From a virus: DNA of 64,000 nt. The stretch covers positions 1 through 64,000 of IMG/VR virus record IMGVR_UViG_3300028925_012913, one strand, 5' to 3'. The translations under genes and the position numbers were made by a program. The notes under the pieces are model-generated. The model was not told the DNA's origin and made no database searches. It worked only from the letters and a program-made list of their open reading frames with translations. Shown here one piece after another: positions 15,303 to 59,500 of the stretch (position 1 is its first letter; each line of letters begins with the position of its first letter).

Positions 15303-16194
15303 GGCGGCTAAACAAGGTGGTATACACGGAGGTTTGTATGTCATAGATACAGATACAGAAGAGGTTATTCATCATGCCCCATATGAAAAAGATTTTATCA
15401 ACGATAATGAGAGAGGCGGGGAACGAGGTCTTCGTGGCATTTCTGTTCTTAGTGACCGGATTATCGTTACTGACTCTGCTGGCTTTATTGAATTAGATAA
15501 AAACACATTTCAAATAAAGCGAACTTATCAAGATAGAGATTACTTTAAAAGCATTCACGAAATAGCTGTTCATGAAGACCACCTATGGGTTACTTCTACT
15601 GCTTATGATGCTATTGTAAAAGTGGACTTAGACTTTAATACAAAAGGTTTTTGGAAGCTTGTTGGTAGAGATACCCCTTCTGCAAAAAAGCTTACTGGTA
15701 AAGAAGAAATAACCTCTGAAACAAAAACAGAAGACGACGACTACCATATAAATTCTATTTCTGTTTATGGTAACAAACTTAGAATCGCTGGGTTACTTAC
15801 TCCCCTTTATGATTTTGAAACCATGAAAGAGGTTTCTCCGATCCCACTAAATAAATCATACAAGAATAGTTTTGTTCATAATTTTTATGAGTATGAAAAT
15901 ATGTTTGTGGCGAATCTAACTACTTTTAGTAGTATTGGTATATTCCGCAAAGGAGGATCTTTTGGATGGGATATTATCGATATACCACGTTCCAAGAATG
16001 TTACCTATCAAGTAGACGACATAGCTGTAAACAATTGGAATAGAGGTCTTGCTATACAAGAAGGTAAAATTATTATCGGTTCGTCTCCAGCAAGATTATT
16101 AATTTACGATATTAAACGAAAAGAATTCGAAAAAGAAATCGTTTTGGAAAAAGACATAAGACACGCAATTCACGGATTGGAGATTTTAGAATGA
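15274..16194 (+). CDS. beta-propeller-like protein (DUF4915-like)
   Basis: The 306-residue product starts at GTG 15274. It consists of repeated short strands with turns (ISVLSDRIIVTDS, IAVHEDHLWVTST, ISVYGNKLRIAG, GLAIQEGKIIIGSS), the pattern of a beta-propeller. HINSISV and FVHNFYEYENMFVAN recall DUF4915-type proteins associated with glycan genes. It follows a glycosyltransferase-like gene, so a carbohydrate-related role is plausible. Function unknown. Confidence 0.5.
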   Translation: MKIICSTVVRAAKQGGIHGGLYVIDTDTEEVIHHAPYEKDFINDNERGGERGLRGISVLSDRIIVTDSAGFIELDKNTFQIKRTYQDRDYFKSIHEIAVHEDHLWVTSTAYDAIVKVDLDFNTKGFWKLVGRDTPSAKKLTGKEEITSETKTEDDDYHINSISVYGNKLRIAGLLTPLYDFETMKEVSPIPLNKSYKNSFVHNFYEYENMFVANLTTFSSIGIFRKGGSFGWDIIDIPRSKNVTYQVDDIAVNNWNRGLAIQEGKIIIGSSPARLLIYDIKRKEFEKEIVLEKDIRHAIHGLEILE

Positions 16195-16400
16195 GTTTTA
16201 ACGAAGAACTGGCCACAAAAAATAAGGCCGAAAAATTAAATATTTCTGGTAATAGTTGGGCATGGGTATTGCCAGAAATTCAGAATGGTCGTAAAATGAT
16301 AGCCTATGCTCAAAACAATGATTTGGTCTGGGTTCACCCAGAATATAAAGATGGGCAAGACAGTAAGAAACAAAAGCAAAAAAGACAAAAAACGTCTTAA
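16191..16400 (+). CDS. hypothetical small protein, 69 residues
   Basis: The product has a Trp-containing middle (NSWAWVLPEIQNGRKMIAYA) and a Lys/Gln-rich basic end. It overlaps the preceding stop (ATGA). No family is recognised. A second short frame (16351-16455) reads through its 3' end. Confidence 0.5.
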   Translation: MSFNEELATKNKAEKLNISGNSWAWVLPEIQNGRKMIAYAQNNDLVWVHPEYKDGQDSKKQKQKRQKTS

Positions 16401-16455
16401 GAACGAGCGCAAATCAAGATTAGAAAGACGAAACAGGTCGTCTGAAGCCAGTTGA
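16351..16455 (+). CDS. possible small basic peptide, 34 residues
   Basis: ATG 16351 to TGA 16455 encodes MGKTVRNKSKKDKKRLKNER followed by KSRLERRNRSSEAS, a strongly basic peptide that could bind nucleic acid. It overlaps the previous gene in the +1 frame, and only a weak AAAG precedes it. The bias toward Lys and Arg is partly forced by the A-rich sequence shared with the other frame, so it may be a chance frame. Confidence 0.25.
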   Translation: MGKTVRNKSKKDKKRLKNERKSRLERRNRSSEAS

Positions 16456-16474
16456 TCTTGGATTACCTCAAGAT
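16426..16474 (+). other. two small hairpins before promoter-like site 4
   Basis: AGACGA (16426-16431) pairs with TCGTCT (16438-16443). ATCTTG (16455-16460) pairs with CAAGAT (16469-16474). Neither is followed by a T run. CAAGATGGTA at 16469-16478 is repeated exactly at 16615-16624 inside the nrdA leader. The stretch 16456-16535 shows nothing else. Confidence 0.4.
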
Positions 16475-16535
16475 GGTATTACTTGAACGGACTGATAGTC
16501 TCTAAACAAAATCAAAAGCAGAGACAATTGTTCTA

Positions 16536-16544
16536 GTGTATAAT
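16536..16544 (+). promoter_or_regulatory. GTGTATAAT promoter-like motif, site 4
   Basis: This copy begins the unit of the nrdA leader RNA. A start near 16551 would give a leader of about 170 bases before nrdA, much longer than at the other copies. No -35 box is visible. Confidence 0.68.
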
Positions 16545-16550
16545 ATCATG

Positions 16551-16698
16551 TCGGAATTTAAACAAGCTTTTAGTAGAGCTAGAACGACACTTTTTCGACA
16601 TGCCATTGTTGCACCAAGATGGTAGTTTAATCTTATTGAGTAATTCAAAATTAACCCTTAACAAACATCTTGGTAAAACTGTGTCGTTCTTTTTTTTC
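16551..16698 (+). ncRNA. structured leader RNA / attenuator before nrdA
   Basis: Three sets of inverted repeats lie here. Stem B: AGAACGACAC (16581-16590) with GTGTCGTTCT (16681-16690), perfect 10 bp, followed by T residues to 16698. Stem C, nested in B: ACCAAGATG (16613-16621) with CATCTTGGT (16666-16674), perfect 9 bp. Alternative stem A: CATGTCG (16547-16553) with CGACATG (16596-16602), whose 3' arm lies inside the B loop, so A and B form a pseudoknot or compete. Stem B plus T run acts like a terminator 24 bases before the nrdA start. It may be a free small RNA or a regulated attenuator. No known riboswitch class was recognised. Confidence 0.65.
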
Positions 16699-16721
16699 TA
16701 TTAAAAACAATTGGATTTAGT

Positions 16722-19184
16722 ATGACTTCAGGTATTAAAGTTAAGAAGCGTAATGGACGGCTAGAAGAAATAAACTTAGACAAGGTAAACAAATGTGTAG
16801 AAAGGGCTTGCAAAAATCTAGATGACGTATCTGTCAGCGAAGTGGTATTAGACGCAAGCCTACAACTCTACAATAAAATAACCACTTCTGAAATAGACAT
16901 AGCTCTAATTATGTCTGCACGGGCAAAGATTGAAAAAGAGCCTAACTATAATTACGTAGCCTCTCGATTACTATTAAATAGTCTATACAAAGAAGTATTC
17001 GGAGAAGGTGTTGATAGCGACTCTTTCGGTGTTCAGTATAAAAAGTCTTTCATTCAGAATATAAAGTCTTTAGTAAAAGTTGATAGACTTGATGAGGCTT
17101 TGTTAGAGTATGATTTAGATCTTCTCTCAGAACATTTAGAACAACCTAGAGATGGCCGGTTTAAATATCTTGGTATCCAAACCTTATATGATAGATACTT
17201 TATTCATATTGAAGGCCGAAGAATGGAAACTCCTCAAGCTTTCTATATGAGAGTTGCAATGGGGCTTTGTTTAAAAGAAAAAAACAAAGAAGAACGAGCT
17301 ATAGAAATGTATAACATGATGTCTGAATTCAGATACTCACCGTCTACTCCCACATTGTTCAATAGTGGCACTTGTCATTCTCAACTATCTTCTTGTTACC
17401 TTAGTACTGTAGACGACTCTATTGATGGAATATTTGGAACCATTCATGGCCAAGCTAGACTATCAAAATACGCTGGAGGACTTGGCGTAGACTGGAGTTC
17501 TGTTCGCTCTACTGGTTCTTATATCAAAGGGACTAACGGAGAATCTTCTGGGTTAATTCCGTGGCTTAAGATATTCAACGACACCCTAGTTGGGGTAAAT
17601 CAGGGCGGAAAGAGAAAAGGCGCTGGTTGTGCTTACTTAGAGGTTTGGCATCTTGATGTTGAAGATTTTCTTGAATTAAGAAAGAACACAGGTGATGAAA
17701 GACGTAGATGTCATGACATGAATACTGCCTTGTGGGTGTGTGATGAGTTCATGGATGCTTCTGCAAAGAGTAAAGACTGGTATTTATTTGATCCTTCTGA
17801 ATGTCCAGAGCTACATGAAACCTATGGAAAAGAATTCTCTAAGGTTTATAAAAAATATAAGAAGATGGCAAACAATGGAGATATTAAAAATTTCCGTATT
17901 ATGAACGCCAAAGATCTTTGGAAGAAGATGCTTAAGTCTTTGTATGAAACAGGACATCCGTGGATTACTTTTAAAGACCCTTCCAATATTAGATATAGTA
18001 ACAAGCATGAAGGAGTGGTTCATTCTTCTAATCTATGCACAGAGATTCTTTTACATACAAAGCCAACCATTTATAAAGATGGAGAAGTTGAAGAAACAGG
18101 AGAGACTGCCGTATGCAACCTCGCAAGTATCAACCTTGAAAACCATGTTAAGATTCGAACTATTGATTGGAAAAAATTACAGCAAACTGTAGAGGTTGCT
18201 GTCAGAGGGCTGGATAATGTTATTGATTTAAATTTCTATCCTACTAGAGAAGCCCACCAATCTAATGTTCGTCATCGTCCAGTTGGTCTTGGAGTCATGG
18301 GAACTCATGGATTACTTCATAAGCTGAACATTGATTACGATTCTAAAGATTCTGTTGTTTTATGCGGCAAGGTTCAAGAATTTATTTCTTACCACGCAAT
18401 CCTTACTTCTTCTAAACTAGCTAAAGAAAAAGGGGCTTATTGGTCATACGAAGGTTCAGAATGGAGTTATGGTAATTTACCAATTGATACATACTGTAGA
18501 TTAATGAACGATAGGCTTCCTGAGCATCCAAAAGGTGGTAACGATAATCATCACCAAATAAAAGACCACGAGACTTTAGAGTGGGATAAAGTTCGAGAAC
18601 ATATACAAGAATACGGAATGCGCAACTCAAACGTAATGGCTATTGCTCCCACCGCGACTATTTCTTATATACAGGGATGCTCTCAATCAATAGAGCCTGA
18701 CTATTCCGTACTATTTGTTTATTCTACCCTGAGTGGTGAATTCACAATGATTAATGAGCATTTTGTAAACATGGCAAAAAAGAAAGACATATGGTGTCAA
18801 GAGCTAATCAACGCTTTGAAAACAGCCGATGGTGACGTTATGTCTATCGACCTTCCAGAAGACATGCAAAGAGAATTTAAAACAGCTTTTGATGTTAGTG
18901 CAGAGACATTAATTGAAGCTGCGGCAGAAAGACAGAAATGGATTGACATGGGAGAGTCATTTAACCTATACAATAAAGGCACAAGTCTTAAATATCTCAA
19001 TGACATTTACACATACGCTTGGGAGCAAGGCTTAAAGACTACGTATTATTTACGAAGCAAAGCTGCAACAAGGCTTGAAAAGTCAACCGTGGACGCCCCT
19101 AAAGAAGATTCAAGCGACATAACTGAACAATATCTTGAAAAAGCCTGCTTAATCACAGACCCAGATTGCGAAAGCTGTCAATGA
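16722..19184 (+). CDS. nrdA: ribonucleoside-diphosphate reductase large subunit (class I)
   Basis: The 820-residue product has an N-terminal ATP-cone (about 1-90) for allosteric control. Catalytic residues are all present: C225 in SQLSSCYL, N437-C439-E441 in NLCTE, C465 in AVCNLASINL, and the radical-transfer tyrosine pair Y775-Y776 in TTYYLRSKAA. The C-terminal redox pair is in CESCQ. It reduces ribonucleotides to deoxyribonucleotides for phage replication. It is followed by a 45-residue gene and nrdB. The leader RNA before it suggests transcriptional control. Confidence 0.95.
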   Translation: MTSGIKVKKRNGRLEEINLDKVNKCVERACKNLDDVSVSEVVLDASLQLYNKITTSEIDIALIMSARAKIEKEPNYNYVASRLLLNSLYKEVFGEGVDSDSFGVQYKKSFIQNIKSLVKVDRLDEALLEYDLDLLSEHLEQPRDGRFKYLGIQTLYDRYFIHIEGRRMETPQAFYMRVAMGLCLKEKNKEERAIEMYNMMSEFRYSPSTPTLFNSGTCHSQLSSCYLSTVDDSIDGIFGTIHGQARLSKYAGGLGVDWSSVRSTGSYIKGTNGESSGLIPWLKIFNDTLVGVNQGGKRKGAGCAYLEVWHLDVEDFLELRKNTGDERRRCHDMNTALWVCDEFMDASAKSKDWYLFDPSECPELHETYGKEFSKVYKKYKKMANNGDIKNFRIMNAKDLWKKMLKSLYETGHPWITFKDPSNIRYSNKHEGVVHSSNLCTEILLHTKPTIYKDGEVEETGETAVCNLASINLENHVKIRTIDWKKLQQTVEVAVRGLDNVIDLNFYPTREAHQSNVRHRPVGLGVMGTHGLLHKLNIDYDSKDSVVLCGKVQEFISYHAILTSSKLAKEKGAYWSYEGSEWSYGNLPIDTYCRLMNDRLPEHPKGGNDNHHQIKDHETLEWDKVREHIQEYGMRNSNVMAIAPTATISYIQGCSQSIEPDYSVLFVYSTLSGEFTMINEHFVNMAKKKDIWCQELINALKTADGDVMSIDLPEDMQREFKTAFDVSAETLIEAAAERQKWIDMGESFNLYNKGTSLKYLNDIYTYAWEQGLKTTYYLRSKAATRLEKSTVDAPKEDSSDITEQYLEKACLITDPDCESCQ

Positions 19185-19318
19185 TATTTCAAGAGTATAG
19201 ACAGTCAGCAACCTCGCCGTTAAAATATATAGTTGAACTAACGCCTGAGGAATTGGAAAGAGTAAAAGACCTGTTGTTTCAAATGATTAAAAGAATAAAA
19301 AAAGATGAAAAAAACTAA
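19181..19318 (+). CDS. small protein between nrdA and nrdB, 45 residues
   Basis: ATG 19181 overlaps the nrdA stop (ATGA) and the stop TAA at 19316-19318 overlaps the nrdB start at 19305. The product begins MIFQEYRQSATSPLKYIVEL and continues TPEELERVKDLLFQMIKRIK, an amphipathic helix with a basic end. The tight double overlap is the spacing seen for real genes in this genome. Function unknown. Confidence 0.6.
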   Translation: MIFQEYRQSATSPLKYIVELTPEELERVKDLLFQMIKRIKKDEKN

Positions 19319-20312
19319 AGAAATTATTTCGGATAAAGTAGCCGCAGTTAATCAGATACTTCCTCATACCAATAAATGGGCGTGGGATTTATTCATAGAC
19401 GGAGCAGCTAATAACTGGATGCCTACAGAGATATCTATGGCTAAAGATATAGAGCAGTGGAGGGGAGATTCTTTAACTGAAGATGAAAAATTAGTAATCA
19501 AAAGATCTTTAGGTTTCTTCGCTGGTTCAGAATCCCTAGTTGCTAACAATCTATTACTAAGTGTTTTCAAGTTTGTTACTGACCCAGAGTGCCGCCAATA
19601 CATTTTAAGGCAAGCATACGAAGAAAGTTTGCACAATCTTACGGTAGTATATTGCTGTGACTCTCTTGGATTAGATATTGAAGAGGTTTATGAAGCCTAC
19701 AGTTCTGTACCAAGCATCAAAGCGAAAGATGTTTTCTTAATGAACATCTGCACGGACATTAATCGTGTGGATTTTAATATCAATACATTAGAAGGAAAAA
19801 GAGAGTTCTTACGTAACTTAATCACGTACTATGTTATATGCGAGGGAATATTCTTCTTTTCCGGTTTTGCCATGCTTCTTTCTTTTAATAGACAGAATAA
19901 ATTGCCCGGAGTTGGAGAACAGATTCAGTACACATTAAGAGATGAGAGTTTGCATATCAAATTTGGTATTAAACTAATAAATAGAATAAGAGAAGACAAT
20001 CCAAAAATATGGACTAAAGCGTTTGAAAAAGAAACGCTCGATCATATCGACAAGGCTATGGAACTTGAACTCGACTATGCCAGAGATGTTTTACCAAATG
20101 GTATACTCGGACTTAACTCCGAAATGTTTATTGATTATGTTCAATATATAGCTAACCGTAGGCTTGAAAGTCTTAATCTTCCTAGTCAATATGAAGATAC
20201 AAAGAACCCGTTCCCATGGATGAGTGAAATTATCGATCTAGAAAAATGCAAAAACTTCTTTGAGACTCGCGTAACAGAATATGCGGTCGGAAATATAGAG
20301 GACGATTTTTGA
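19305..20312 (+). CDS. nrdB: ribonucleotide reductase small subunit, tyrosine-less (class Ic-like)
   Basis: The 335-residue product carries the ferritin-like metal ligands: E76 in GSESLVANN where Asp is more usual, E107 and H110 in YEESLH, later Glu in ICEGIFF and E/H in RDESLHIKFG. The residue four after H110, which is the radical tyrosine in standard R2, is Val114. Glu in place of Asp plus no tyrosine is the pattern of class Ic-type R2 proteins that use a metal-based (Mn/Fe or similar) oxidant. It would pair with NrdA. Confidence 0.9.
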   Translation: MKKTKEIISDKVAAVNQILPHTNKWAWDLFIDGAANNWMPTEISMAKDIEQWRGDSLTEDEKLVIKRSLGFFAGSESLVANNLLLSVFKFVTDPECRQYILRQAYEESLHNLTVVYCCDSLGLDIEEVYEAYSSVPSIKAKDVFLMNICTDINRVDFNINTLEGKREFLRNLITYYVICEGIFFFSGFAMLLSFNRQNKLPGVGEQIQYTLRDESLHIKFGIKLINRIREDNPKIWTKAFEKETLDHIDKAMELELDYARDVLPNGILGLNSEMFIDYVQYIANRRLESLNLPSQYEDTKNPFPWMSEIIDLEKCKNFFETRVTEYAVGNIEDDF

Positions 20313-29844: not shown

Positions 29845-30841
29845 TTTAGGAACGTTAGAGTTTTGTCAGCAAAAGTATTTTTTGCAGTACAATCTATCTT
29901 TCAGAGACAAGACTAACAAGAAAGCCTTAATGGGGACAATAACCCATAAGGTAATGCAGACTCTTGGAGACAAGAAGGTTGCTATTCTTAATGGGCTTGA
30001 TGTAGTAGAAGACGAAGAGACAGGAAGAACTCTTACTTTAGAAGAATGCGATGATCTTGAATTGCTCAATGATATCGCTTTTGAATATTACAGCTCTGCT
30101 TTTCCAGAAGTTAATATAACCCAAGCAGACAAAAGAAAATGTTTATCATGGGCCGAAAAAGCAGTAGCTTATGAAGGTGGAGTGTTAGACCCTAGAAACC
30201 AAGACGTGGTTGCTACGGAATTGTTTTTCGACTTCGAAATTAAGAAGCCGTGGGCTAAGTATTCATACGAACTTGGTGGGAAAACTATTGAAGGGTATTT
30301 ATCAATCAAAGGAACGGTTGACTTAATACTTAAACAAAACGAAGAGTATTATGAGATACTAGATTACAAAACAGGGAAGAGGCTAGACTGGGCAACTGGC
30401 GAAGAAAAAACATACAGTAAACTGCAAAACGACACTCAGCTATTATTGTATTACTATGCCCTTAAAAATATGTATCCTGATCGTGAATTCTCAGTAAGCA
30501 TATATTACATTAACGCTGGTGGTTTGTTTTCTTTTGTATTTGACGAAGACGATTACAAAAAAGCGGAAGACATACTACGCAAGAAATTTGAACAAATCAG
30601 AGATATTCAAAACCCCAGACTTCTTTCTAATGAACATAAACATTGGAAGTGTCAAAGGCTTTGCAAGTTTAGCGAAGAGTATGAAAACTCTGGAAAAAGC
30701 GTTTGCCAACACATACGAGATGAACTCGTAGAAAAAGGCGTAAACGCAGTTGTTGAAGAGTATGGAGTTATTGATAAAATTACTACCTACGGAGACGGTG
30801 GCGGTAGATTAGTTGACGACGATAAGAAAGATAAAAAATGA
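29816..30841 (+). CDS. Cas4/RecB-like nuclease with likely Fe-S cysteines
   Basis: The 341-residue product has the RecB-type motifs SLGTLEFCQQKYFLQY (N-terminus, C17), GTITHKVM, GTVDLIL and EILDYKTGK. Three further cysteines, C279, C283 and C297, lie near the end. A lone N-terminal Cys plus a C-terminal trio is the layout of the 4Fe-4S cluster in AddB/Cas4-type nucleases. It precedes the polymerase by a 4-base overlap and probably acts as a 5' or 3' exonuclease in recombination. Confidence 0.75.
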   Translation: MIVCYHRSSSLGTLEFCQQKYFLQYNLSFRDKTNKKALMGTITHKVMQTLGDKKVAILNGLDVVEDEETGRTLTLEECDDLELLNDIAFEYYSSAFPEVNITQADKRKCLSWAEKAVAYEGGVLDPRNQDVVATELFFDFEIKKPWAKYSYELGGKTIEGYLSIKGTVDLILKQNEEYYEILDYKTGKRLDWATGEEKTYSKLQNDTQLLLYYYALKNMYPDREFSVSIYYINAGGLFSFVFDEDDYKKAEDILRKKFEQIRDIQNPRLLSNEHKHWKCQRLCKFSEEYENSGKSVCQHIRDELVEKGVNAVVEEYGVIDKITTYGDGGGRLVDDDKKDKK

Positions 30842-32754
30842 CAAATTGGACTCCCATTCACCTTCATAGCCACTATTCTTTGCTTGATGGCCTTAGCAGG
30901 CCCGCACAGATAGCCTCACGCTGTTCTAACCTTGGTTATGAGTCTTGTGCCTTAACTGACCACGGGACTATATCAGGGGCTGTAGCGTTTACACAGGCTA
31001 TGAAACAAAAAAATATTAAGCCAATATTAGGGTGCGAGTTCTACCTAAGCAAGCAAGATACAACTATTCACAACGAAGAAAATAGGAAGCTTAGTCATCT
31101 ATGTGTTCTGTCTAAAAACAAGAAGGGATGGGACAATCTAATACAAGCGGTATCTAAGAGTAATGATGAAGAGAATTATTACTACAAGCCTAGATTAGAT
31201 TTAAAAACATTAGGCGAATTTGCTAATGGAGATCTAATTGCTTTTAGTGGTCATCTAGGAAGTGATCTAGCAAATGTAATATTTTCTGATGCTAGGTCTG
31301 CTTATAATTCTAGAACAGAAGAAGAAGCTAAAAGATTCACCCATCCTGATTGGGTAGACAATGTTGTCGCAATGGCCAATCAGTATATAGACATTTTTGG
31401 TAAAGAAAACTTCTTTGTTGAAATACAAGCGATTGACCAAGAGAATTCTCCAGCAGCTAGTCTAGTAGCTCAGGGTTTAAGGTATGTAGCAAAAAGACAC
31501 GGATATCGTACCGTAGCAACTGCTGACTCACATTACCCAGAGAAGAAAGACGCAGAAGACCAACTTCTCTTATTGTGTTCTTCAATGAGAACAACCTTAC
31601 GGGATGTAAGAAAAAAATTAAAGGAAACAGGAGATGCTTCTTTTTCTGGTTTTATCAGGTCTAATAATTTCCACATTCCTTCTTTAGAAGAAATACAAGC
31701 TGTTAACACTCCACAAGAAATAGAAATGTCAATGCAGATAGCTTCTATGTGCGAAGACTATGATATTCTTGGTAGACCAATGCTTCCTAAATTCAAATGC
31801 CCGAAAGAAAAATCAGAAGACACCTATCTTCGCGAGTTATGTAGACAGGGTTGGAAAAGCAGGTTAGAGCCAACAGGTAAGATTAATGGCGTAGAAATTA
31901 AACAAATATACACAGACCAGATTAAAAAAGAACTTGATGTAATCAGCGAGGCAAATTTAGCTGGGTATTTCTTAATTGTTAGAGATATAGTTGATAGTGT
32001 CGTAAAGAAGAACCATATTCCCGGGCCGGGTAGAGGAAGTGCGGCAGGTTGTTTGATATCTTATTTAGTAGGCATTACACAAGTAGACCCTATAGAGTAC
32101 GGATTACTATTTGAACGATTCTATAATGCTGGTCGTAATACTGCTAACAGAGTTTCGCTTCCTGATATCGATATTGATGTACCCGCAAATAAACGAGACG
32201 AAACAATAGATTACATTCGAGGAAAATACGGATCAAAACGTGTTGGACAAATGGTTACGTTCGGAAGACTTCAAGGAAGAAGTGCTTTAAAAGAAGTTCT
32301 AAGAATGAATGACGCTTGTGGTTTTGAAGAAATGAATTCTATCACCAAAAGCCTACCTCACGAACATGAAGTATCTGACCAATTGTCTGAAATGGATAAT
32401 CCGTCTGTTATCAATTGGACATTAATGAATCAACCGGATGCCCTTAGAGACTATTGTAGATTAAATGATGATGGCTCTCTTGAAGGCGATCACGCTAAGT
32501 TCTTCGAACAGGCGATGAGAATCGAAGGGACATTTAAATCACAAGGAAAACACGCCGCTGGTGTTGTTATATCTTCTCACGACCTTAACGACGTATGCCC
32601 TATGGTTAGGGACAAAAGAGGTTCTGAAAAGATAGCCGGAATGGAAATGAACGACCTAGAAGCAATGGGTCATGTTAAGTTTGATATTTTAGGAATTTCT
32701 TTAATGGATAAAATGATGAGTATTAGAGACCAACTGAAGGAAAGACATGTCTGA
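30838..32754 (+). CDS. dnaE: DNA polymerase III alpha subunit, N-terminal part (PHP and palm)
   Basis: The 638-residue product has the PHP domain (HLHSHYSLLDG at 8-18, ALTDHGTISG), the GPGRGSAAG motif (about 398-406) and the three catalytic Asp of the C-family palm: two in LPDIDIDVP and one in VKFDILGIS. It stops just after that last motif, where a normal DnaE continues. The missing fingers, beta-binding and OB regions are in the gene at 33650-35242. The start overlaps the previous stop (ATGA). Confidence 0.9.
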   Translation: MTNWTPIHLHSHYSLLDGLSRPAQIASRCSNLGYESCALTDHGTISGAVAFTQAMKQKNIKPILGCEFYLSKQDTTIHNEENRKLSHLCVLSKNKKGWDNLIQAVSKSNDEENYYYKPRLDLKTLGEFANGDLIAFSGHLGSDLANVIFSDARSAYNSRTEEEAKRFTHPDWVDNVVAMANQYIDIFGKENFFVEIQAIDQENSPAASLVAQGLRYVAKRHGYRTVATADSHYPEKKDAEDQLLLLCSSMRTTLRDVRKKLKETGDASFSGFIRSNNFHIPSLEEIQAVNTPQEIEMSMQIASMCEDYDILGRPMLPKFKCPKEKSEDTYLRELCRQGWKSRLEPTGKINGVEIKQIYTDQIKKELDVISEANLAGYFLIVRDIVDSVVKKNHIPGPGRGSAAGCLISYLVGITQVDPIEYGLLFERFYNAGRNTANRVSLPDIDIDVPANKRDETIDYIRGKYGSKRVGQMVTFGRLQGRSALKEVLRMNDACGFEEMNSITKSLPHEHEVSDQLSEMDNPSVINWTLMNQPDALRDYCRLNDDGSLEGDHAKFFEQAMRIEGTFKSQGKHAAGVVISSHDLNDVCPMVRDKRGSEKIAGMEMNDLEAMGHVKFDILGISLMDKMMSIRDQLKERHV

Positions 32755-32985: not shown

Positions 32986-33669
32986 ATGAATTATAGGGAT
33001 ATTATCGTTTTTGACTTTGAGACTGGTTCTCGAAATCCAGACAAAACACAACCAGTGCAAATAGCCGCAGTGGCCATTCATGGTAGGAAATTAACTATTC
33101 AACCAGACGGATATTTTGAAAGTTTAATTCGACCTATCTTAGATGATGACGAAGCTATCGAGATGGGATTAGATCCTATTGAAGATGAAGCTTTAGCGGT
33201 TAATGGCAAGACCAGAAAAGAGTTAGCAAAGGCTCCATCAGAAAGAACTGTCTGGAAGAAGTTCGGGAATTTTGTAAACAAATACAATTTTAAAGGGACT
33301 CCTTACTACGCCCCAATTGCAGCTGGGTACAATATCGTAGGTTTTGACATGCCTATCGTGCAGCGAATGTGCGAGCTATACGGCCCAATTGACAAGAAGA
33401 CTGGTAAACAAACTCTTTTTAATAAAATCCACCGAGTTGACGTTATGGATAATGTCTGGATGTGGATGGAGAACAATGCAGATATTAAATCTTTAAGCAT
33501 GGACTCAATGAGAGACTTGTTTGGTATGAGTAAAGAAAACGCTCATGATGCTTTACAAGATGTTAAAGATACTGCTAATTTGATGATAGGCTTTATGAAG
33601 CTCTATCGACGTGTTGCCCCTAAGGTTCAATTTGAAAAGGCTTTTGCTGATGGAAACATCCACATTTAA
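32986..33669 (+). CDS. DnaQ-like 3'-5' proofreading exonuclease (DEDDh)
   Basis: The 227-residue product has all three Exo motifs: VFDFETGS (8-15, Asp10 and Glu12), AGYNIVGFDMPIV (about 117-129) and NAHDALQDVKD with His187 and Asp192. AAAGGG precedes the ATG. Its 3' end overlaps the second half of the polymerase gene by 20 bases. It almost certainly proofreads for the split polymerase that surrounds it. Confidence 0.88.
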   Translation: MNYRDIIVFDFETGSRNPDKTQPVQIAAVAIHGRKLTIQPDGYFESLIRPILDDDEAIEMGLDPIEDEALAVNGKTRKELAKAPSERTVWKKFGNFVNKYNFKGTPYYAPIAAGYNIVGFDMPIVQRMCELYGPIDKKTGKQTLFNKIHRVDVMDNVWMWMENNADIKSLSMDSMRDLFGMSKENAHDALQDVKDTANLMIGFMKLYRRVAPKVQFEKAFADGNIHI

Positions 33670-35242
33670 TCCACTTGAATTAAAGTTTGACGACGAAGTT
33701 ACTTGGGAATTAATTTGCGTAGGAAGAACTAAGGGTGTCTTTCAACTAGAAAGCAATCTTGGTAGATCTTGGGCTAAAAGAGTTCAGCCAAAGAACATTG
33801 AAGAGTTGGCTGCCTTAATTTCTATTATTAGGCCGGGAACATTGAAAGCTATTCAAGATGGCAAATCAATGACTCAAAGGTTTGTTGATAGAAAAAATGG
33901 TTCTGAAGAAATAACTTATTTACATGAATCTCTTGAGCCTATCCTAAAAGGAACTCAAGGCGTTCTTGTATATCAAGAACAAGCTATGAAAATAGTACAG
34001 CAGCTTGCTGGCTTTAACCTTCAAGAAGCAGACGATCTTCGTAAGGCTATTGGTAAGAAGAAAGCAGACCTTATGGCTAAGGTTAAAAAGAAATTTTTAA
34101 AGGGAGCTATTGTAGAAAAGATTGTTAGCGAAGAAGAAGCTGAAGAAATCTTTAGTTGGATTGAAGCTTCAAGTAGGTATTCGTTTAACAAATCTCACGC
34201 TGTGTCTTATGCCATATGTGCTTATTGGAGTGCTTATGCTAAAGCTCACCACCCTCTTGAGTTTTATTGTAGTTACTTGAAACATTCAGGAGGCAAGCCA
34301 GATCCTCAACAAGAAGTGAGAGAGCTTGTTAATGACGCCAAGAATAATGAAATCTATATTAATCCACCTTCTATAAAAGAGATTAATGTAGGTACTGCTA
34401 TTATTGACGATAGGATTCACTTTGGAGTTACTGATATAAAGTCTGTTGGAATAAAACAGGTTGCAAAATTTAGAGATGCTATTGTATTTTTAGAACAGTC
34501 CTCTGGCAGAGAGCTTTGTGATGCAACTTGGTACGAATTTCTTGTCTTGGCTTCTAACAAGGCAAACTCAAGAATGTTAACAGGTCTTATTTCTGTTGGT
34601 TTCTTTTCTCATCTTCCGGAATCTCGTCAAAGAATGTTGGACGAGCTAGATACTTGGTCTAACATGACTAAAAAAGAGATTGAATGGGCAGAAGACAACT
34701 TTGATAGATTTGATAATCTAATATCATTGTTGACAGCAATGGCTCCCACAAAGAAACAGGGTGGTTCAACTTTTAATTCAAAGCGTTCTCAGATTTTAAC
34801 AGACTTAGTAAAACATTGTAAAAATCCGTCGTATGCATTAAATGATGATTCAGGCTGGGTTATACGAACAGAGCAAAACTATCTAGGGGTTGCTTTAACA
34901 TACTCCAAAGTAGAAACCTATGATACATCGGTTGCTAACACAACTATAAAACAGTTCGTGGAAGGTAAACGTGGTAACATTAAAATGGCTATAACTGTTA
35001 GCGAGGTTAAAAGATACGTTGCTAAAAAAGGAAAAGCTAAAGGTTTAGAAATGGCCTTTCTAAATGTAGAGGATAATACTGGAACTCTTGATACAGTGAC
35101 AGTGTTTTCTGACCAATGGAAAAGCTTTAAGAATTTGCTCTACGAAGGAAGCGATGTAATCTTAGTTGGTCAAGATTCTAAAAAGAAACGATATCAGCTA
35201 GACGACGGGTTTATAGTTAATAATGTGATAGAATTAAGTTGA
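33650..35242 (+). CDS. dnaE: DNA polymerase III alpha subunit, C-terminal part
   Basis: The 530-residue product starts best at ATG 33650 (AAGG before it), inside the exonuclease gene. It opens at GVFQLES and IRPGTL, which in intact DnaE follow the third catalytic Asp, and includes VYQEQAMKI, ADDLRKAIGKKK and FNKSHAVSYA. An OB-fold region (MAFLNVEDNTGTLDTVTVF) ends it. Together with the 30838-32754 product it makes one complete polymerase. The FNKSHA site, where cyanobacterial split inteins sit, is intact here. Confidence 0.9.
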   Translation: METSTFNPLELKFDDEVTWELICVGRTKGVFQLESNLGRSWAKRVQPKNIEELAALISIIRPGTLKAIQDGKSMTQRFVDRKNGSEEITYLHESLEPILKGTQGVLVYQEQAMKIVQQLAGFNLQEADDLRKAIGKKKADLMAKVKKKFLKGAIVEKIVSEEEAEEIFSWIEASSRYSFNKSHAVSYAICAYWSAYAKAHHPLEFYCSYLKHSGGKPDPQQEVRELVNDAKNNEIYINPPSIKEINVGTAIIDDRIHFGVTDIKSVGIKQVAKFRDAIVFLEQSSGRELCDATWYEFLVLASNKANSRMLTGLISVGFFSHLPESRQRMLDELDTWSNMTKKEIEWAEDNFDRFDNLISLLTAMAPTKKQGGSTFNSKRSQILTDLVKHCKNPSYALNDDSGWVIRTEQNYLGVALTYSKVETYDTSVANTTIKQFVEGKRGNIKMAITVSEVKRYVAKKGKAKGLEMAFLNVEDNTGTLDTVTVFSDQWKSFKNLLYEGSDVILVGQDSKKKRYQLDDGFIVNNVIELS

Positions 35243-49956: not shown

Positions 49957-49965
49957 ATTATACAC
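49957..49965 (-). promoter_or_regulatory. GTGTATAAT promoter-like motif, site 5
   Basis: On the minus strand this reads GTGTATAAT. It lies in the 43-base gap upstream of the 49924 start codon. A start near 49950 gives a leader of about 25 bases with AAGGAG at 49934-49939. That the motif is found on both strands, always before a gene, supports it being a promoter. Confidence 0.68.
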
Positions 49966-50532: not shown

Positions 50533-53500
50533 TTATTCTCCTTCTTCTACTACAGTTTCATGTATGTTGCAATGAATTACTGAATTTCCTGATATTCCAA
50601 ATGCCAACTCTAAGTCTTCAAACACAGGCCCGTCATAATGATCTGGGTAACAATTATCAGAACATTCATGATAACTCATAGGGCCTCTTGAGTTACAGCA
50701 TATTTGTGGGAAATCTAGCCAGAAGTCTAAATTAACAGGCTTGTCACTATTATGATCCCTGCAATTATTTTCTGGAGCTGGAGTTCCAACAATAACATCA
50801 AATGCTCCACCATGCCTAGTCCAATAGGAATATGGATCATCCCAAAAAGCCTCATTAAGCCCACCTTCTTCTTTACCTTCATCTCTGTCTAGATATGTAG
50901 TATATGCTTTTTTGTCTTTATCTGACATATCCAAATCTTCTACTTCTGTGATATGTATAACCCCTTTCCATTTTCTTTTTGTTATACCCCAATGATAAAT
51001 AGATGCAGGCCAACTGGGATTGTGGGTATCAAGATCGGGGTTATGGTCGTGATATGCCAACTCCATATTTTTACTAGTATTTTTAGTGGATGTTGGTGAC
51101 AGACTAAGTACGCTAGGAGTGTTAAAGTAAACGTCATAAAGAACCACACCTTTTACCTTAATTTCTAACGATTTCGTAAGATCTTCGGTCAGCACTAAGC
51201 ATTCTTTAGGATCGTAGTCAAGATCACTCCCGTCAAATATTAGAAACTTCTCGCCCTGTCCTGCCGCCGAGCTCGAAGCAATGCATTTAAAATTTGGTAC
51301 TAGTTGACCGTCAGCGGATAAACAATCTTCAGTTTCGTTTACAGTTAAGACTGAATCACTCCGTTTTTGTATTTTTCCAGTAAGTTTATCTTTACAACCT
51401 ATGTATACTTGTTCAGTTATGCATTCTTCAGACTCTTTACACTTTTTCGTTGCATCTATGTATTCTTTATGTTGTTCCATGAGAATGTCATCACTTCTAT
51501 TTCCAAATATTGAATCTATGCCAAAAAGAATATCACCATATCCATATTTAGCATCCTTGCTTAAAAGGTAGTTTTCAAATTTTGAGGAATTGTCTGTAAT
51601 GCCTTCATCATTAATAGTGATGTGAGTTTCATCAGATATTACAAATCCTGTTTTTAATCCGTAAAAATCTAAAAGTCTAGCATCTCTCGTTTCATTAAGA
51701 ACGCGTTCGTTGAGACGTTTAAGGCTATATAAATCCATCTCTATATTTCCGGAAACTATATGGCTTCCATCTATAGGGCTTAATGGACATCCTACTAGCT
51801 CTCCTTCTTCATCTATAATACAATCACTACATTCTCCTTCAGGACTGTCATCTGTCATTGGACTACATGCGTTCTCTGAGTAGAAACTTCTTAATTGACA
51901 TCCTATAGGACATCCATCCTCAAAATCTTTCTCTCTTCTTTCTAGATCTTTAGGTTTATCATTGTTAGGGTCTACATAAACGTTACTAAAGGTACTGGTG
52001 TTATGTTCACCGAAGTTTACCATGTCATCATTTCTAATACCGATTATCCATTTTCCACCAAAAGCTTCACATAAAGTTTTATCTCCGTCTGGATAATCGT
52101 TTATGACTTGAACCCATTTTCCATTTTGTTCTGTACATTCATTAATATTTAAACCTTTTCCTGAGCCGTCATCGATGTCACAATATCCCATTCGTGACCC
52201 TTTGCATGTAGCTCTATAAGAAATGGTAGAACTGATAAGTAGTTTTTCATTTGCTTCAAAATCTTTAAAGTCATTGTTTGTGTCAACATGAGTGAATAGG
52301 AAGTCAGGAAGCCATACGTATCCACTATCAATGCATATGTTTTTTGGATTTACTTCTCCTGACAACGAATCCGGAAGGTTTGGATTACCAACACAATACC
52401 CATTACCGTGACCGCCCAAGTCCTTGTAGTAATTTCTAAACCCTGTTATCTTAAGGGCTTTTTTCTTACCAAACTCTAAGCTGTTTTCTATAGACCATCT
52501 AACTCCAGACCTTCCGGGATCATCAATATCACCCATTGTTCTAAGGCTTTCTAGATTATTCGAAAGAACTTTTCCTTTTGGCCACATCTCACTCTTAGAA
52601 GTACCTGACCGAGTTTGTGTTCCAACTGGATAAGGGTTTATTCCAAAGGGGTGTGGCAGTAACTTATTAGATTCTTTTTTACTAAATGAAGGCGCTTCTA
52701 TCCACTTACCTCCACATGTATCTACTGAACTTTGCTCTCTGTCAATCTCGCCTTCACAAGTTGCTTTATTTGGACATTCGAGAGATCGTTGCCAATAGCC
52801 AGTAGGGCCGAATTCATCATCACAAGATTGTTGAGTATGTGTTTTTCCAGTTAGAAAGTGAGATTTGACAAGATGGGCTGACTCGTAACCATCCGATCCA
52901 TCATACCCTTTTTTCCAACACCCCTCTTCAATTTTAGTATCACATTTGTCCTTAGAAATATCTCTCCCAAATTCAATATCACCGTATTTTAAATGTCTAT
53001 TCTTTCGTGGATTCTTAGTAATAAACTGAGTTACATCATCAACTTCAATTAACATATACTCATTACGGTCATCAATCTTCCTGCCTTCACTTGCTCCAAA
53101 TTCACTAAGAACAGATTCTCCGTCTTTTATAGGACTCTTTAAAACAGTTCCTCGTAAATATGGGTTCTTGGGTTTGTTATTTCTAGAAGAACTCCCTAAA
53201 GTGTCAGACTCTGCATCTTGTAAATCAGCCAAGCCAACACTAATAGTAGTTCCAGCCGAATAAGAACAATGACGACCATTTCCCGTAAATGGATAAGCAT
53301 TAACTACAAGAGTTCCTTCTCCTGTCTTATGATTAACATCGATTATGTCATAAACAGTAAAAGTCTCGGATTGTTTTTGAGGCGTTGGATCAAAACCTAT
53401 AGTTTGACATTTATGAGCTATGTCTCCACCTGTAGAACAAGCAACTGCTCCACTCCATAAAGGTCCCGTGTTATGAAGTGGTTTATCTACCCCTTCGTAT

Positions 53501-56500
53501 GTACAACATTTAGTTCTCCAACAGGGGCCTTTTGGCCCACAGTCACGGGAAGTCACACAGGTTCCAACAAAAGCATATTTTCTTTCATCATTAGATGGGC
53601 CTTCGGTTTCGGAAGGCCAATTTACTGTTATTTTATCCTTCTTTTCTACATTACATCCTAAGTAATTCGGAAAACAAGGAGGACTGCCACTAACTCCATC
53701 AATTACGCGATTTCCTCGCAATGTCTCTGATATTCCATCGTCATGAAAAGTGCAATTAGTAATCTCAGCCCAAAGCCTGATTCCATTATTATTATAAGAA
53801 TGAGGACCCGGTCCAAAACCGCCATCTTTTAACTCCCCATCTTCTATAGAAGGTATAGCATTTCCACAGCCCATTATTAATCTAATAAAATGACCATCTT
53901 CAGTCCCTGTGTAACCAGTAGGAGGATAAACTACAGGATCCCTTGGTGGGCGTATATCTCTATATTTACCGTTACTTCTATTCCATACACCTCTTCTTAT
54001 AGACTGAGGTAGATCGCACCCGTCACAATCAGAATTTATAGGAGTAATAAAATTAGAATCACCCCCTTCATCCCCTACTTGACACTTAACCGGCCAAGAT
54101 AATTTTAAACATTGTTTAGTTCCAACTCTTTGCATTAGAGTCCATTCAGAACGCCAAACAGTTCCGTCATATTCTAAATCAACATCTAGAAGAGAATCTA
54201 ACATCCAAATTTCCTCCGCGTCTTCACAATCCTCTTCCGTGGTAATAAGTGGATTGTTTAAACAATACCCACTATCTTCAGCAATATCTTTTCCGTTAGT
54301 AAGACCCGGACATGTATTATTTACCGCATGCATTCCTTGCCCATAATCATAACAAGATGCATTAGCAGTCGCTAAAGTAGACCCTCTAGGACCACATCCA
54401 GTACTATCTGGGTTATCGTAATAATCTTTACCAGTTTGAAGTTTGCATGATTCCAAGCCTTCAACATTTGTATCAGAGACTTTTTCTGTTTCGCAATGCA
54501 TTGCAACATTATTAGGAAAACAAGAACATGGATCAAAGGCCCAATAATATATTCCTCCTGACTCAGTACCTCCTGACATAGGAAAGTAAACTTCACATGT
54601 TCCTGTTAATTCGCCTATAGTAACTACACCCAAAAGTCTTGTAAGATTGCAATCTCCAGCTATATTAATAAACTCTTCGCATTTAGGAAATTTGTTAATG
54701 TTTGGGGTGCAATCACAAGAGTTAAAATCGTCGTTTGGACCGTTTTCGCCTGATGCACAACAAGATCTATTATTTTTACTAACCAATGCGTTTTTAGAAA
54801 TACCATTAGAACCTGTATCAGGATCGTTTTTCCATCTCATTGGAAGCTTATTCTGCTCACTATAAACCTTTGAGCATTTTCTACAATTTGTAGTTGATTC
54901 TTCGTTTAGTCTTTTTCTTAAGAAAAGCTCACATTCTGTTTTCCCGTTACTGTTTCTAGAAAGAGGATAGAATGTTCCATTGCTGTTTTCACATTCATCT
55001 TTTGTATGAGCAACAAGAGTAACACCCTCAGAGTCTTTACATATACCAAAAAGTTCAGGATTTGCTTTACAAGCCTCTAAGTCTAATAAATTACACCCGT
55101 GGTATGTATCTGAACAACAAAAACCATCTCCTATGATTGCGTCATTATAATCTTCAATCCAAACATTAGGGTTTTTACAACTATATTTATCAAATTCTAA
55201 TATATTTCCTAACGGGTCTAAACAAACTCTAGGTTCAAAACAAGGATCTATAGGGCAAGTTATTAGGTTTAGAATCTCGCTAGATTCAGGATTTAATGTA
55301 GCCGTAAGTTTTTCTGGCATGAAATGATCACAGCAGACAGGACAGATTCCCTTTTGCTCAATTTGTACATAGTAGTCATTAGCGTCTGATTCTGAACGCT
55401 TACTAATTCCTCCGAAACTTTCCCTGTATTCTATATTAAAAGAAGAAGGGCTTTGATGAACCATGTATTCTGGAACTATATCTTGTGTGTATGTTATCCA
55501 TTCCCCAGTAAAAGGACATACCTTATAGACAGAACCGCCATATTTTCCGACTCCGCCCGAATTTGCGGCTATAGATCTTTCATCAGCCCATGTTCCAGCA
55601 CTCCAACATTTGTCAAAGTTTGTACCGTCAACAACGCATTCATTGTATAGACCGTTTGAAACAGTGGGTTCTTGCCATTTACCATCATAGACTGAACACA
55701 TTGCTTCTGTGAGGTTGGGATCAACTTTACCATCAATAATACATGCAGTATGTTTTGCTTTACAAACCTTACTAAAGTCTTCAAAATTAAAAATGTTATT
55801 TAAAAGTTCTTGACTATTATCTCTATCCCCATTTAAATCAAAGCAAGCAGTAGTATACTTTTGTTTAGTGTCCGTATACTCTGACTTTGGATGCAACTCA
55901 GAAAAAACCTTAGCTAATTCAGTACATTCTTCTTTACTAATAAAAGATTCCAAGGGGTCTTTGGTTAACGCGTCAGCAATTATTGAACACGTTCCATGTT
56001 TGGAACATGTTGATTCATCAAAATTAGATCCTTCTCCTATATCTACCATAGTGGGTAACTCAACACTACCTGACACGTCTGACTGCATATAAAGCACGGG
56101 CACAACTTTATAGAGAGCTTTTTCTATGATTTTTTCATAGGTTGATATTCCATAGTTAGAAATACAAGCCATCTTAATATCTTCAGTTTCACATTCTAAA
56201 TCTCCTGAAAGATTGATTCTATTTGTGATTTGTCCATCAATAGGAGTCTTATCACATGTGTATAAATCAAATGTGTCTATTGTTGTGTTTTTTACAACAA
56301 AGAAGGGAGCTGGGTCAGGATCTTCTCCTTGAACTACAGTTCCATCACAAGCAAAATACTTTGACTTATCGCAAAACTCAACCCATGTTCCGGGATTAAT
56401 CCATTTTGCCCCTCCACATCCTGCGGGACCATTCTTAGAACAGTGAAAGACAGCAGATGTCCATGTAAATTCTGGAGCAGTGCAAAATCTCTCCTCTAAA

Positions 56501-59500
56501 TCAACGGTCTCTCCACTAAAAGCGTTTATACATTTACCGGGTTCTTTTACGGTTTTAGAATATCCATCAGGACAACCTCCTTTATTGTCTAAAGGTTTAG
56601 TACTTCCTTTGGCATCAAGACATTCTTTTTCTGACAAGCAGTTTTTGCCGTCATCTTTAAGTATTTCTTTGTCATCTGCGCCTACACATTCTCCAGTACT
56701 ACAGCTTAAAGGAGTTTTGTTTGGTATTTCATTTCCGCTACTGTCTTGACATTTAGATTCGTAAGGGCAAATAACATCAGGCCAAGTAATATTATCGCAG
56801 CTTTCTCCAACGCAAGGTTTATAAAGAGTGTCTTCCCATTGGATAGCCTGCTTCTCTTTAAGAGACATTACATTAGCAACAAAATTTCCTAAGACACCCT
56901 TAACGTCAACTAAGTCTCCATCACGCAATTTATGCTCTGGGGATGTGATTTGTACAGGAACGTCATTGCTTGCGTAACTAATTCTTCCTGATCCAACAGT
57001 GCCTACACATGTATTATTAACATAGCTAGCAATTTCTGGTTTAGGAATCAGGCCAGTTTCAGCCCAGTAATCCATAGCGTTCCAGTTTTGCCAACTTGCA
57101 TCGATATCTTCTTTAATAAGAGGTCTTTGTTTGATTAGAGAGTTTTCTCTTAACGGGTATCCTTCATAACCATGATAAACACCTACTCTATGAGCTTCAA
57201 ACGTTGAATCAGGTAAAACAGAGTCGTCATATTCAGCAAGTCGATGTTTATCTTTTTCGGATTCGTCTGAGCATTCAGTTTTTGTTATAGGCTCTTTTAC
57301 TACTGTAGTTACTTCACCAGAATCGTTTTCATATAGTGTGCATTTTCCTATTTGATCTCCAAATACAATATCAGCAAAATCTTCTGGAATTTCTACGGGT
57401 TCAAGACATTCTGTTGTAACTAATGTTGGAGCACATCCCTCATTCCAGACACCATCGGCTCCGCCATCTTCTATAGATTTCTCACATTCTTCTTTGTCTA
57501 CAGCATCTCTCCAGCCACCTGTTCCAGTCTCGGGATCCATAAATCCTATCTGCTGGTCACACTCTTCACTCCATGAACAACACCCACGCCATGGTTTAAC
57601 AGGCTTCCAAGTGTAATTTTTTTCATTACAGGAGACTTCTGTTGTGGCTTCTTCAACTTCTTTATCGAGATCGTTATAGCATTTTCCTTTATCTCCACAG
57701 CCTTGGCTTCGATTTGCATGTTCAAAAGTTCCATCTTGATGCTCGCAGGTTCCAGCCTGACTGCATTTATGTTCATCGGTTGCTGAACAAGCAGGACAGC
57801 TAAAATCATTAAATTCAGAATCGAAAGGATACCAACCCGCCCAATTAGAAAACCCGCAAGTGCTATTTGTTAAGAATCCAACATGACTATCTACGTATTT
57901 TCTAGCCATTATAGAAACTTTTTCACATTCTCCTTGCTTAGGACATGGCTTTGCAGGAGTCCACACGCCGTCACATTGTTTTGGATTTATGCATGTACTT
58001 TCATATTCACATGCAGTAGGGGCGGTCCATTTTCCGTTACACTGTTCAGGATGGGTACAGTCATCTTGATTATTACAAGAACTACCCTTTTTCCATGTTG
58101 CACCATTGGCTCCACATTTTTCTTTGTCTTCGCAGTCTTTTTGAGTTAAACATTCTTCACCCCGAACCCATTCGGCTCCAACAGACCCACATTTATCTTT
58201 ATCTAGACAGTCTTCTTTATTAAGACATACAAGTTCTTCTACCCAGTCACCTCCGCATGTAGCTGCCGGACTTTGTTCTCTATCAACCTTACCTTTACAA
58301 GTTGCTTGATTTGGACAAACAAGCCTTCGTTGCCAGTAATTCAATGTACTCGCAGCAACACAAGTTTGTTGAGTGTGTGGTTGTTGAGTAAAATGGTCAT
58401 TTGGGACAAGATAGGCTGGCTCATAGCCAGCCGATGAAGTAAGCCCTTTTACCCAGCACCCCTCTTCTATCACGGTATCACACACTGCTGGTACTGACTT
58501 ATCGCAATAATCTGGAGCGTGTCTGTCACAGTAATCAGGACGGTCTGAATCACAACTTCCTTTTCTTTTTTTACTACAAGTTCCGCCTCCTTCTACACAA
58601 TCTTCGTCATAATCGGTTGGGAAAACGCTTGTATTTGCTATTCCACCTGAGCCGCTTACACTAATTTCATCATGTTGAAGAAAATCATAATACAAGAAAT
58701 AGTCCGGACCATAGTTCAAAAACCAATTTCCCCCCGTGCTGGAAAAACCGGGTTCAAGACCAAAAGTGTGATTAGCACAGAGATTCCAATGCCTATGATC
58801 TATAGCCGCTGATTCTAAACTCTTTACTCTGTTTTGTCTTTCTTCTGCTGCTTTGAAGGGCTGTGGCTGTAAATTAAATCCATAGAACCTATCAGCCCCT
58901 TTAGGGTTAAGTATATTACCAAAGAACTTACGATTAGTCATTTTGGTATAATCTTCATAAAGAACAGGTCTGTCTAGTCCTTCTTCGCCCTTATCATAAT
59001 ATGCCCACTGACTACAATGAGATCCACTATAATCAAATCCTCCCCTATCATGATTTTCATGCCATCTATCTTGGTTTAGTTCAGGAAAGGGTAGGTCTTC
59101 TCCATCCGAACCTCTTCCGCTTTGATATTCAAGCACTCCGTCGGCTATACCATCCTTATTAGCATCGGGATTATTACACCACCAGCTCCATTGATTCCCA
59201 TTAATAGCGTCTCCGGGGAATGGGCCAGCGATAGCACCCGGCCAATTTGAATTAAAGAGCATATCCGCAGGGTTACCCATGAGGTCACCCATTGTAAAAT
59301 TCCACATAGGTTGAGGTTCACGCCATCTAGATGGACTTGTATGATATTCTCTATCTGTAGATCTTTTAGAAAGCCTTGGGTGTTCTTGCTTGTAACCAAT
59401 GTTCGTGGACATCACGCCAACAAATGGAGTCTTCCTATCACTTAACGTCAAATTAAAGTTAGAATCATTTAGAATTTGGTTTGCCGGGATGTTAAGGATT

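Follow-up and report, generated by a model that had tools for sequence, protein, structure and literature searches.

A conserved pseudoknot RNA, a candidate cis-acting leader, upstream of phage ribonucleotide reductase genes

The DNA analyzed here (the window) comprises the first 64,000 nucleotides of a 69,266-base virus record in IMG/VR. Its plus strand carries the genes of a class Ia ribonucleotide reductase (RNR). The large subunit, of 820 amino acids, is encoded by nrdA at positions 16722-19184 (Pfam PF02867, PF00317, and PF03477; NCBIfam NF005544, above its cut-off), and the small subunit is encoded by nrdB at 19305-20312 (PF00268; NCBIfam NF005550, also above cut-off). A second IMG/VR record (L001/L056) has an RNA identical to the one described below and a 100% identical NrdA. 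No tRNA or tmRNA was found in the window. Elsewhere, DNA polymerase is encoded in two plus-strand open reading frames (ORFs), at 30838-32754 and 33611-35242, that match two halves of phrog_405, with a 227-amino acid ORF (32986-33669, plus strand) between them, an arrangement that possibly reflects an intron, an intein, or the insertion of a homing endonuclease. An ORF of 3555 amino acids lies on the minus strand at 50533-61200.

Upstream of nrdA is a promoter motif, GTGTATAAT (16536-16544), which contains a TATAAT −10 element (16539-16544) and stands, in the window's subgroup of relatives, conserved at a fixed spacing from P1, the first helix of the RNA described below; a promoter-like motif had been noted at this place in a preliminary description of the DNA. 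The motif recurs shortly 5' of ORFs at 732, 6593, and 8928 on the plus strand and at 49965 on the minus strand and probably represents a phage-wide promoter class. From its position, we infer a transcription start near 16550. About 45-75 nt upstream of this promoter is a conserved DNA element, ACCTCAAGATGGTATTACTTGAACGGACT (16465-16493), whose counterpart in three relatives (L002, L003, and L036) is CACCCAAAGTAGGTCTTACTCAAACAAACT. Further upstream still, a basic 34-amino acid ORF, MGKTVRNKSKKDKKRLKNERKSRLERRNRSSEAS (16351-16455, plus strand), overlaps the 3' end of a 69-amino acid ORF (16191-16400) and is probably a small gene that was missed; a frame resembling it, MGKTIRRKSKQDKKRLKEQRKV..., was read by eye in L003.

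Four helices, P1 to P4, occupy the space between the promoter and nrdA. The 5' strand of P1 (16547-16556, with a conserved core at 16549-16555) pairs with 16593-16602 and covaries with it; in the window, CATGTCG at 16547-16553 faces CGACATG at 16596-16602, and the helix can be extended to 10 bp with one G-U pair. P2 is a hairpin at 16565-16580, formed by AGCT at 16565-16568 and AGCT at 16577-16580. P3 joins AGAACGACAC (16581-16590) to GTGTCGTTCT (16681-16690) in a perfect 10-bp stem followed by eight T residues (16690-16697), which, read from the sequence, form the U-tract of a terminator and end 24 nt before the ATG of nrdA at 16722. P4 is a domain at 16613-16674 with a perfect 9-bp stem (16613-16621 with 16666-16674); an internal AGTTTAA is conserved in the window's subgroup, and the domain varies among subgroups. 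The terminator stem with its T run and the stem inside its loop agree in every particular with the preliminary description. The region folds more stably than its dinucleotide shuffles, with z = −3.3 for 16530-16710 and z = −4.0 for 16550-16697, the predicted transcript.

The 3' strand of P1 sits within the loop of the terminator stem, adjoining its 5' arm. P1 and P3 thus form an H-type pseudoknot, and they are conserved together in all subgroups. P1 had originally been described as a 7-bp pairing that either conflicts with the terminator stem or forms a pseudoknot with it; the pairing and the pseudoknot hold good, and the conflict does not, since both helices are conserved side by side. The idea of competing repeats must likewise be given up, because P1 and P3 are not mutually exclusive: exchange of their 5' strands (at least 5 bp) is possible in only 25 of 56 members and is absent in whole subgroups, and was rejected as a mechanism of the family for want of conservation. 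No conserved alternative anti-terminator pairing emerged from the test of P1/P3 strand exchange in these 56 members.

The four-helix structure, pseudoknot included, was scored in the window's subgroup (A2, 27 sequences) against 500 shuffles. Paired cells amounted to 92.5% (86.1 ± 0.5 in shuffles), double-change cells to 63 (14.8 ± 4.3), and covariation to 0.283 (0.168 ± 0.009), a value reached by none of the 500 shuffles; shifting the partners by one column lowered pairing to 35-40%. P1 alone was 97.9% paired, with a covariation of 0.365 against 0.209 ± 0.021, and 14 sequences have C-G at one of its pairs where the other 13 have U-A. Only three P1 pairs have a double change within A2, which is not above shuffles (2.1), and the wider family was therefore needed. 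Here, a P1 of at least 6 bp was present in all 55 distinct members tested, in 38 different sequences, by an alignment-free measure whose mean score was 18.8, compared with 12.9 ± 0.46 when the 3' parts were permuted among members (the largest of 200 permutations gave 14.1). On a tree built from unpaired columns, P1 has undergone 7 double compensatory changes, P3 5, and P4 13; the absence of such changes had been set as grounds for dismissing the RNA, which thus passes that check. P3 has 98.9% paired cells in A2, and compensating variants of it occur in L121, L122, L208, and L136. P4 is 88% paired in A2, and its inner pairs are less secure, given 17 changes to non-pairs on the tree. P2 is 76.9% paired in A2 and poorly aligned there.

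The RNA of the window is almost certainly one member of a conserved RNA family, of which about 55 distinct sequences are present in IMG/VR. They share a common layout, running from the promoter through the 5' strand of P1, the P2 hairpin, the 5' arm of P3, the 3' strand of P1, the P4 domain, and the 3' arm of P3 to, usually, a U-tract. The P3 arms are usually CGACAC and GTGTCG (5' and 3', respectively), an A-rich linker follows the 5' strand of P1 (UAAA in 41 of 56 members), and the P2 hairpin has a different sequence in other subgroups (GAGCGA..TTCGCT or AGCC..GGCT). In four members (L084, L086, L093, and L111), the promoter spacer repeats the 5' arm of P3, with AACGACAC immediately 5' of the TATAAT box, so that the 3' arm of P3 is also complementary to promoter DNA; in L009, the RNA itself contains only a degenerate P3 5' arm. 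A 25-codon frame at 16548-16625 was considered as a leader peptide and rejected, as it is not kept: L002 lacks the ATG, and L006 would encode a different peptide.

Relatives were gathered from IMG/VR by an NrdA search and a DNA pattern, and NrdJ searches added more. All are metagenomic contigs, for which we infer a marine origin. The DNA-pattern scan placed the RNA also before nrdJ, the gene of an adenosylcobalamin-dependent class II RNR, assigned by a best NCBIfam match to TIGR02505 (E about 1e-67) that is below the curated cut-off and by the presence of the Pfam domain RNR-II_ins_dom. A covariance model without P1 (R1) recovers distant subgroups, with one copy of the RNA per contig, and no second copy was found in the same contigs. 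The cultured phages of INPHARED gave no DNA match; compared at the protein level, their RNRs are less than 60% identical. Bacterial and archaeal genomes had no match to one exact DNA pattern, which excludes close copies alone.

Every true member lies upstream of an RNR gene, either nrdA or the B12-dependent nrdJ. This linkage is also apparent from four scans with DNA patterns that use no RNR sequence (53 loci, many contigs being common to several scans), in which 72 of 84 matches were followed by nrdA or nrdJ in the same direction. The other 12 lack a promoter and P1 and look like chance; L262 together with 11 DNA-pattern matches was rejected on that ground. The class of RNR behind the RNA has changed at least two to three times: the RNA tree requires a minimum of three changes of label, two of them forced by well-supported branches, and some long branches leave exact placements unsure. 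The RNA of the window, which precedes nrdA, nests in a clade with six nrdJ-linked RNAs (support 96/99). The nearest long ORFs upstream fall into nine unrelated groups (six with several members and three singletons), one of them a dCMP deaminase, and it is therefore RNR that the RNA follows, not the upstream neighbor. That close relatives of the RNA precede the B12-free nrdA led us to reject B12 sensing as the sole explanation.

Some relatives do without the RNA. It is missing from some close nrdJ relatives (L123-L126), and a plain terminator takes its place in L123, L125, L126, and L132. In five further nrdJ relatives that lack it (L165, L169, L171, L182, and L198), the GTGTATAAT promoter lies directly 5' of nrdJ, and these leaders look as if the RNA had been excised from them. 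In two loci that have the RNA (L005 and L047), the RNR operon downstream of it opens with a small basic ORF; the two ORFs look related (...KKSFESDKGREVFDFLQ... and ...KRKTFASDDAQGMAKFFNKYQ...).

P3 resembles an intrinsic terminator in its 10-bp stem and T8 before nrdA and, in most members, in a U-tract directly after P3. It is not a short-loop terminator: about 90 nt separate the arms and hold the 3' strand of P1 and P4, and a standard terminator scan (loops of 3-8) did not report it. The distance from the U-tract to the start codon is often only some 11-30 nt; in most close relatives of the window it is about as short as the 24 nt seen there. P3 and the U-tract lie immediately next to the ribosome-binding site in L208, where the sequence reads TTTTTTAGGAGATAACGATG, and in L121. 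Such a gap is too short for a conventional promoter, so RNR should depend on read-through, and it appears that RNR needs transcription to pass the terminator. Other members are arranged differently. In six (L045, L057, L089, L095, L099, and L104), the interval between the RNA and nrdA contains a further terminator, of the plain kind, and a −10-like site, which suggests a separate transcript in this L045-type subgroup, and a similar arrangement is found in L088, L090-L092, and L103. P3 lacks a U-tract and is followed by a separate terminator in L067, L077, L078, L115, and L090-L092, and in L120/L255 the pseudoknot is kept directly before nrdJ with no terminator seen. The persistence of the pseudoknot in members that have lost the U-tract argues that it has a function beyond termination.

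A search of the window and 20 related loci with the 4227 models of Rfam 15, including cobalamin, preQ1, SAM, and NrdJ RNA, found nothing at the gathering threshold, in keeping with the first impression that no known riboswitch type is present; at lax thresholds, the window and two further subgroups gave chance-level matches only. Control of nrdJ is usually by a cobalamin riboswitch, and the model for it found no match in seven nrdJ loci (L033, L038, L039, L041, L044, L047, and L051). Riboswitches of the preQ1-II and SAM-II types are H-type pseudoknots with a hairpin in a loop. The phage RNA resembles them in this topology and in its position in a 5' leader, but it has no Rfam match, and in most members one stem of the pseudoknot is the terminator stem.

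In the open-access literature, we found no account of a comparable leader RNA linked to phage RNR, and none is given in the parts consulted of a survey of phage RNRs (PMC3653736). NrdJ RNA (RF03034), listed before nrdJ in Streptomyces lividans (PMC8079986), is also a structured RNA 5' of nrdJ; RF03034 has no match here, however, and the phage RNA is found before nrdA as well, and in phages. The manA and wcaG motifs are candidate leader RNAs of marine metagenomes and cyanophages (PMC2864571) and are similar in being candidate phage leaders, but they differ in their genes and do not match by Rfam. A precedent for riboswitch use in marine phages is the glutamine riboswitch before ssrA in methylophage Melnitz (PMC9004378), which belongs to a known Rfam family, precedes another gene, and is not matched by the phage RNR RNA. 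The crcB and pfl leaders, too, are conserved 5'-leader RNAs that overlap terminators; in those, the conserved fold and the terminator are considered mutually exclusive (PMC2864571), whereas here the terminator stem is part of the conserved fold. What would be new is a structured RNA of the leader type in which the terminator stem doubles as one stem of a conserved pseudoknot and which has been kept across RNR classes.

The best explanation, to which we give a probability of about 55%, is that the RNA is a conserved cis-acting 5' leader, or attenuator, of phage RNR operons that acts on transcription. The transcript would start at GTGTATAAT and fold into an H-type pseudoknot with P1 and P3 as its stems, the P2 hairpin occupying loop 1 and the variable P4 domain loop 3. 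In most members, P3 would run into the U-tract and form an intrinsic terminator just 5' of nrdA or nrdJ, such that RNR is made only upon read-through. P1 would be complete before the 3' arm of P3 is transcribed, with the 5' arm of P3 then held in the P1 loop, between P2 and P1. A ligand or a protein could in this way, by setting the stability of P1, decide whether P3 forms in time, and anything that stabilizes or loosens P1 or P4 could alter the rate of P3 formation and hence termination. A cis-acting leader is supported by the covariation of the pseudoknot, by the linkage to RNR in RNR-independent scans through changes of class and of upstream genes, by the short gap between U-tract and start codon, and by the RNA-less nrdJ relatives with the same promoter. 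Against it stand the second terminator and promoter-like site of the L045-type subgroup, the loss of the U-tract with retention of the pseudoknot in L067, L077, L078, L090-L092, L115, and L120, the absence of the RNA from L123-L126, and the lack of a conserved anti-terminator pairing. The signal would have to suit both B12-free and B12-dependent RNRs, and this speaks against cobalamin being the only ligand; candidates are, for example, dNTPs or nucleotide state, or a phage protein. As with riboswitches, a conserved structured 5'-leader domain precedes functionally related genes, here RNRs of both classes. A tentative proposal, which we nonetheless consider rather unlikely, is that the RNA represents a new class of riboswitch. 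Its pseudoknot, with the terminator stem built into it, would respond to deoxynucleotide or nucleotide state and set the supply of RNR during infection, whichever RNR class the phage encodes.

The proposal of a structured RNA with a terminator before nrdA is confirmed, and the accompanying suggestion that it may be a free RNA of about 150 bases has gained some support. Such an autonomous phage small RNA of ~150 nt would have its own promoter, its 5' end in P1, and its 3' end at the terminator and would act in trans, its targets being RNA or protein of the phage or the host; its place before RNR would reflect conserved gene order, and expression of RNR would rely on leaky read-through or on a promoter of its own. 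This is the main alternative and is possible, if with the odds against it. P1 begins where transcription is expected to start, strong conservation of P3 extends to members in which a separate downstream terminator has replaced it, and one subgroup has two terminators and likely its own nrdA promoter, but no copy occurs away from RNR in either the RNR-independent scans or whole contigs, the RNA and RNR stay paired while RNR class and upstream genes change, and in most members the space for a promoter before RNR is missing.

We regard as improbable a leader that acts on the translation of RNR or the stability of its mRNA, to which the terminator would be incidental: in most members, P3 is followed at once by a perfect U-tract, which speaks against it, and we noticed no conserved pairing that involves the ribosome-binding site, even though the terminator-less pseudoknot directly before nrdJ in L120/L255 and the abutment of P3 and the U-tract on the ribosome-binding site in L208 and L121 would suit it. 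Least credible by far is the explanation that the upstream genes simply end in an ordinary terminator, the additional repeats being due to chance. Terminators between operons are common, and a plain one stands at this place in the four RNA-less loci noted above; P1 and P4, however, would be useless to a simple terminator, and their covariation is seen in every subgroup; the RNA also has a promoter in front of it, and members without the U-tract retain P1 and P3. On the sequences compared, the covariation already contradicts it.

Even if it is a plain attenuator or a small RNA, the RNA represents a family that Rfam lacks and whose pseudoknot clearly covaries; its approximately 55 sequences are a ready set for structure probing and ligand screens. 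RNR, which sets the supply of deoxynucleotides, is among the key genes of many lytic phages. The RNA, about 150 bases long and carried by many uncultured bacterial viruses, has been retained when the enzyme was swapped for one of a very different type, and it therefore probably controls when the RNR gene is switched on. Its persistence through exchanges of mechanistically different RNR classes points to control by the product or by the infection program rather than by a cofactor, and, if dNTPs are what it senses, the RNA would read out the product of RNR directly.
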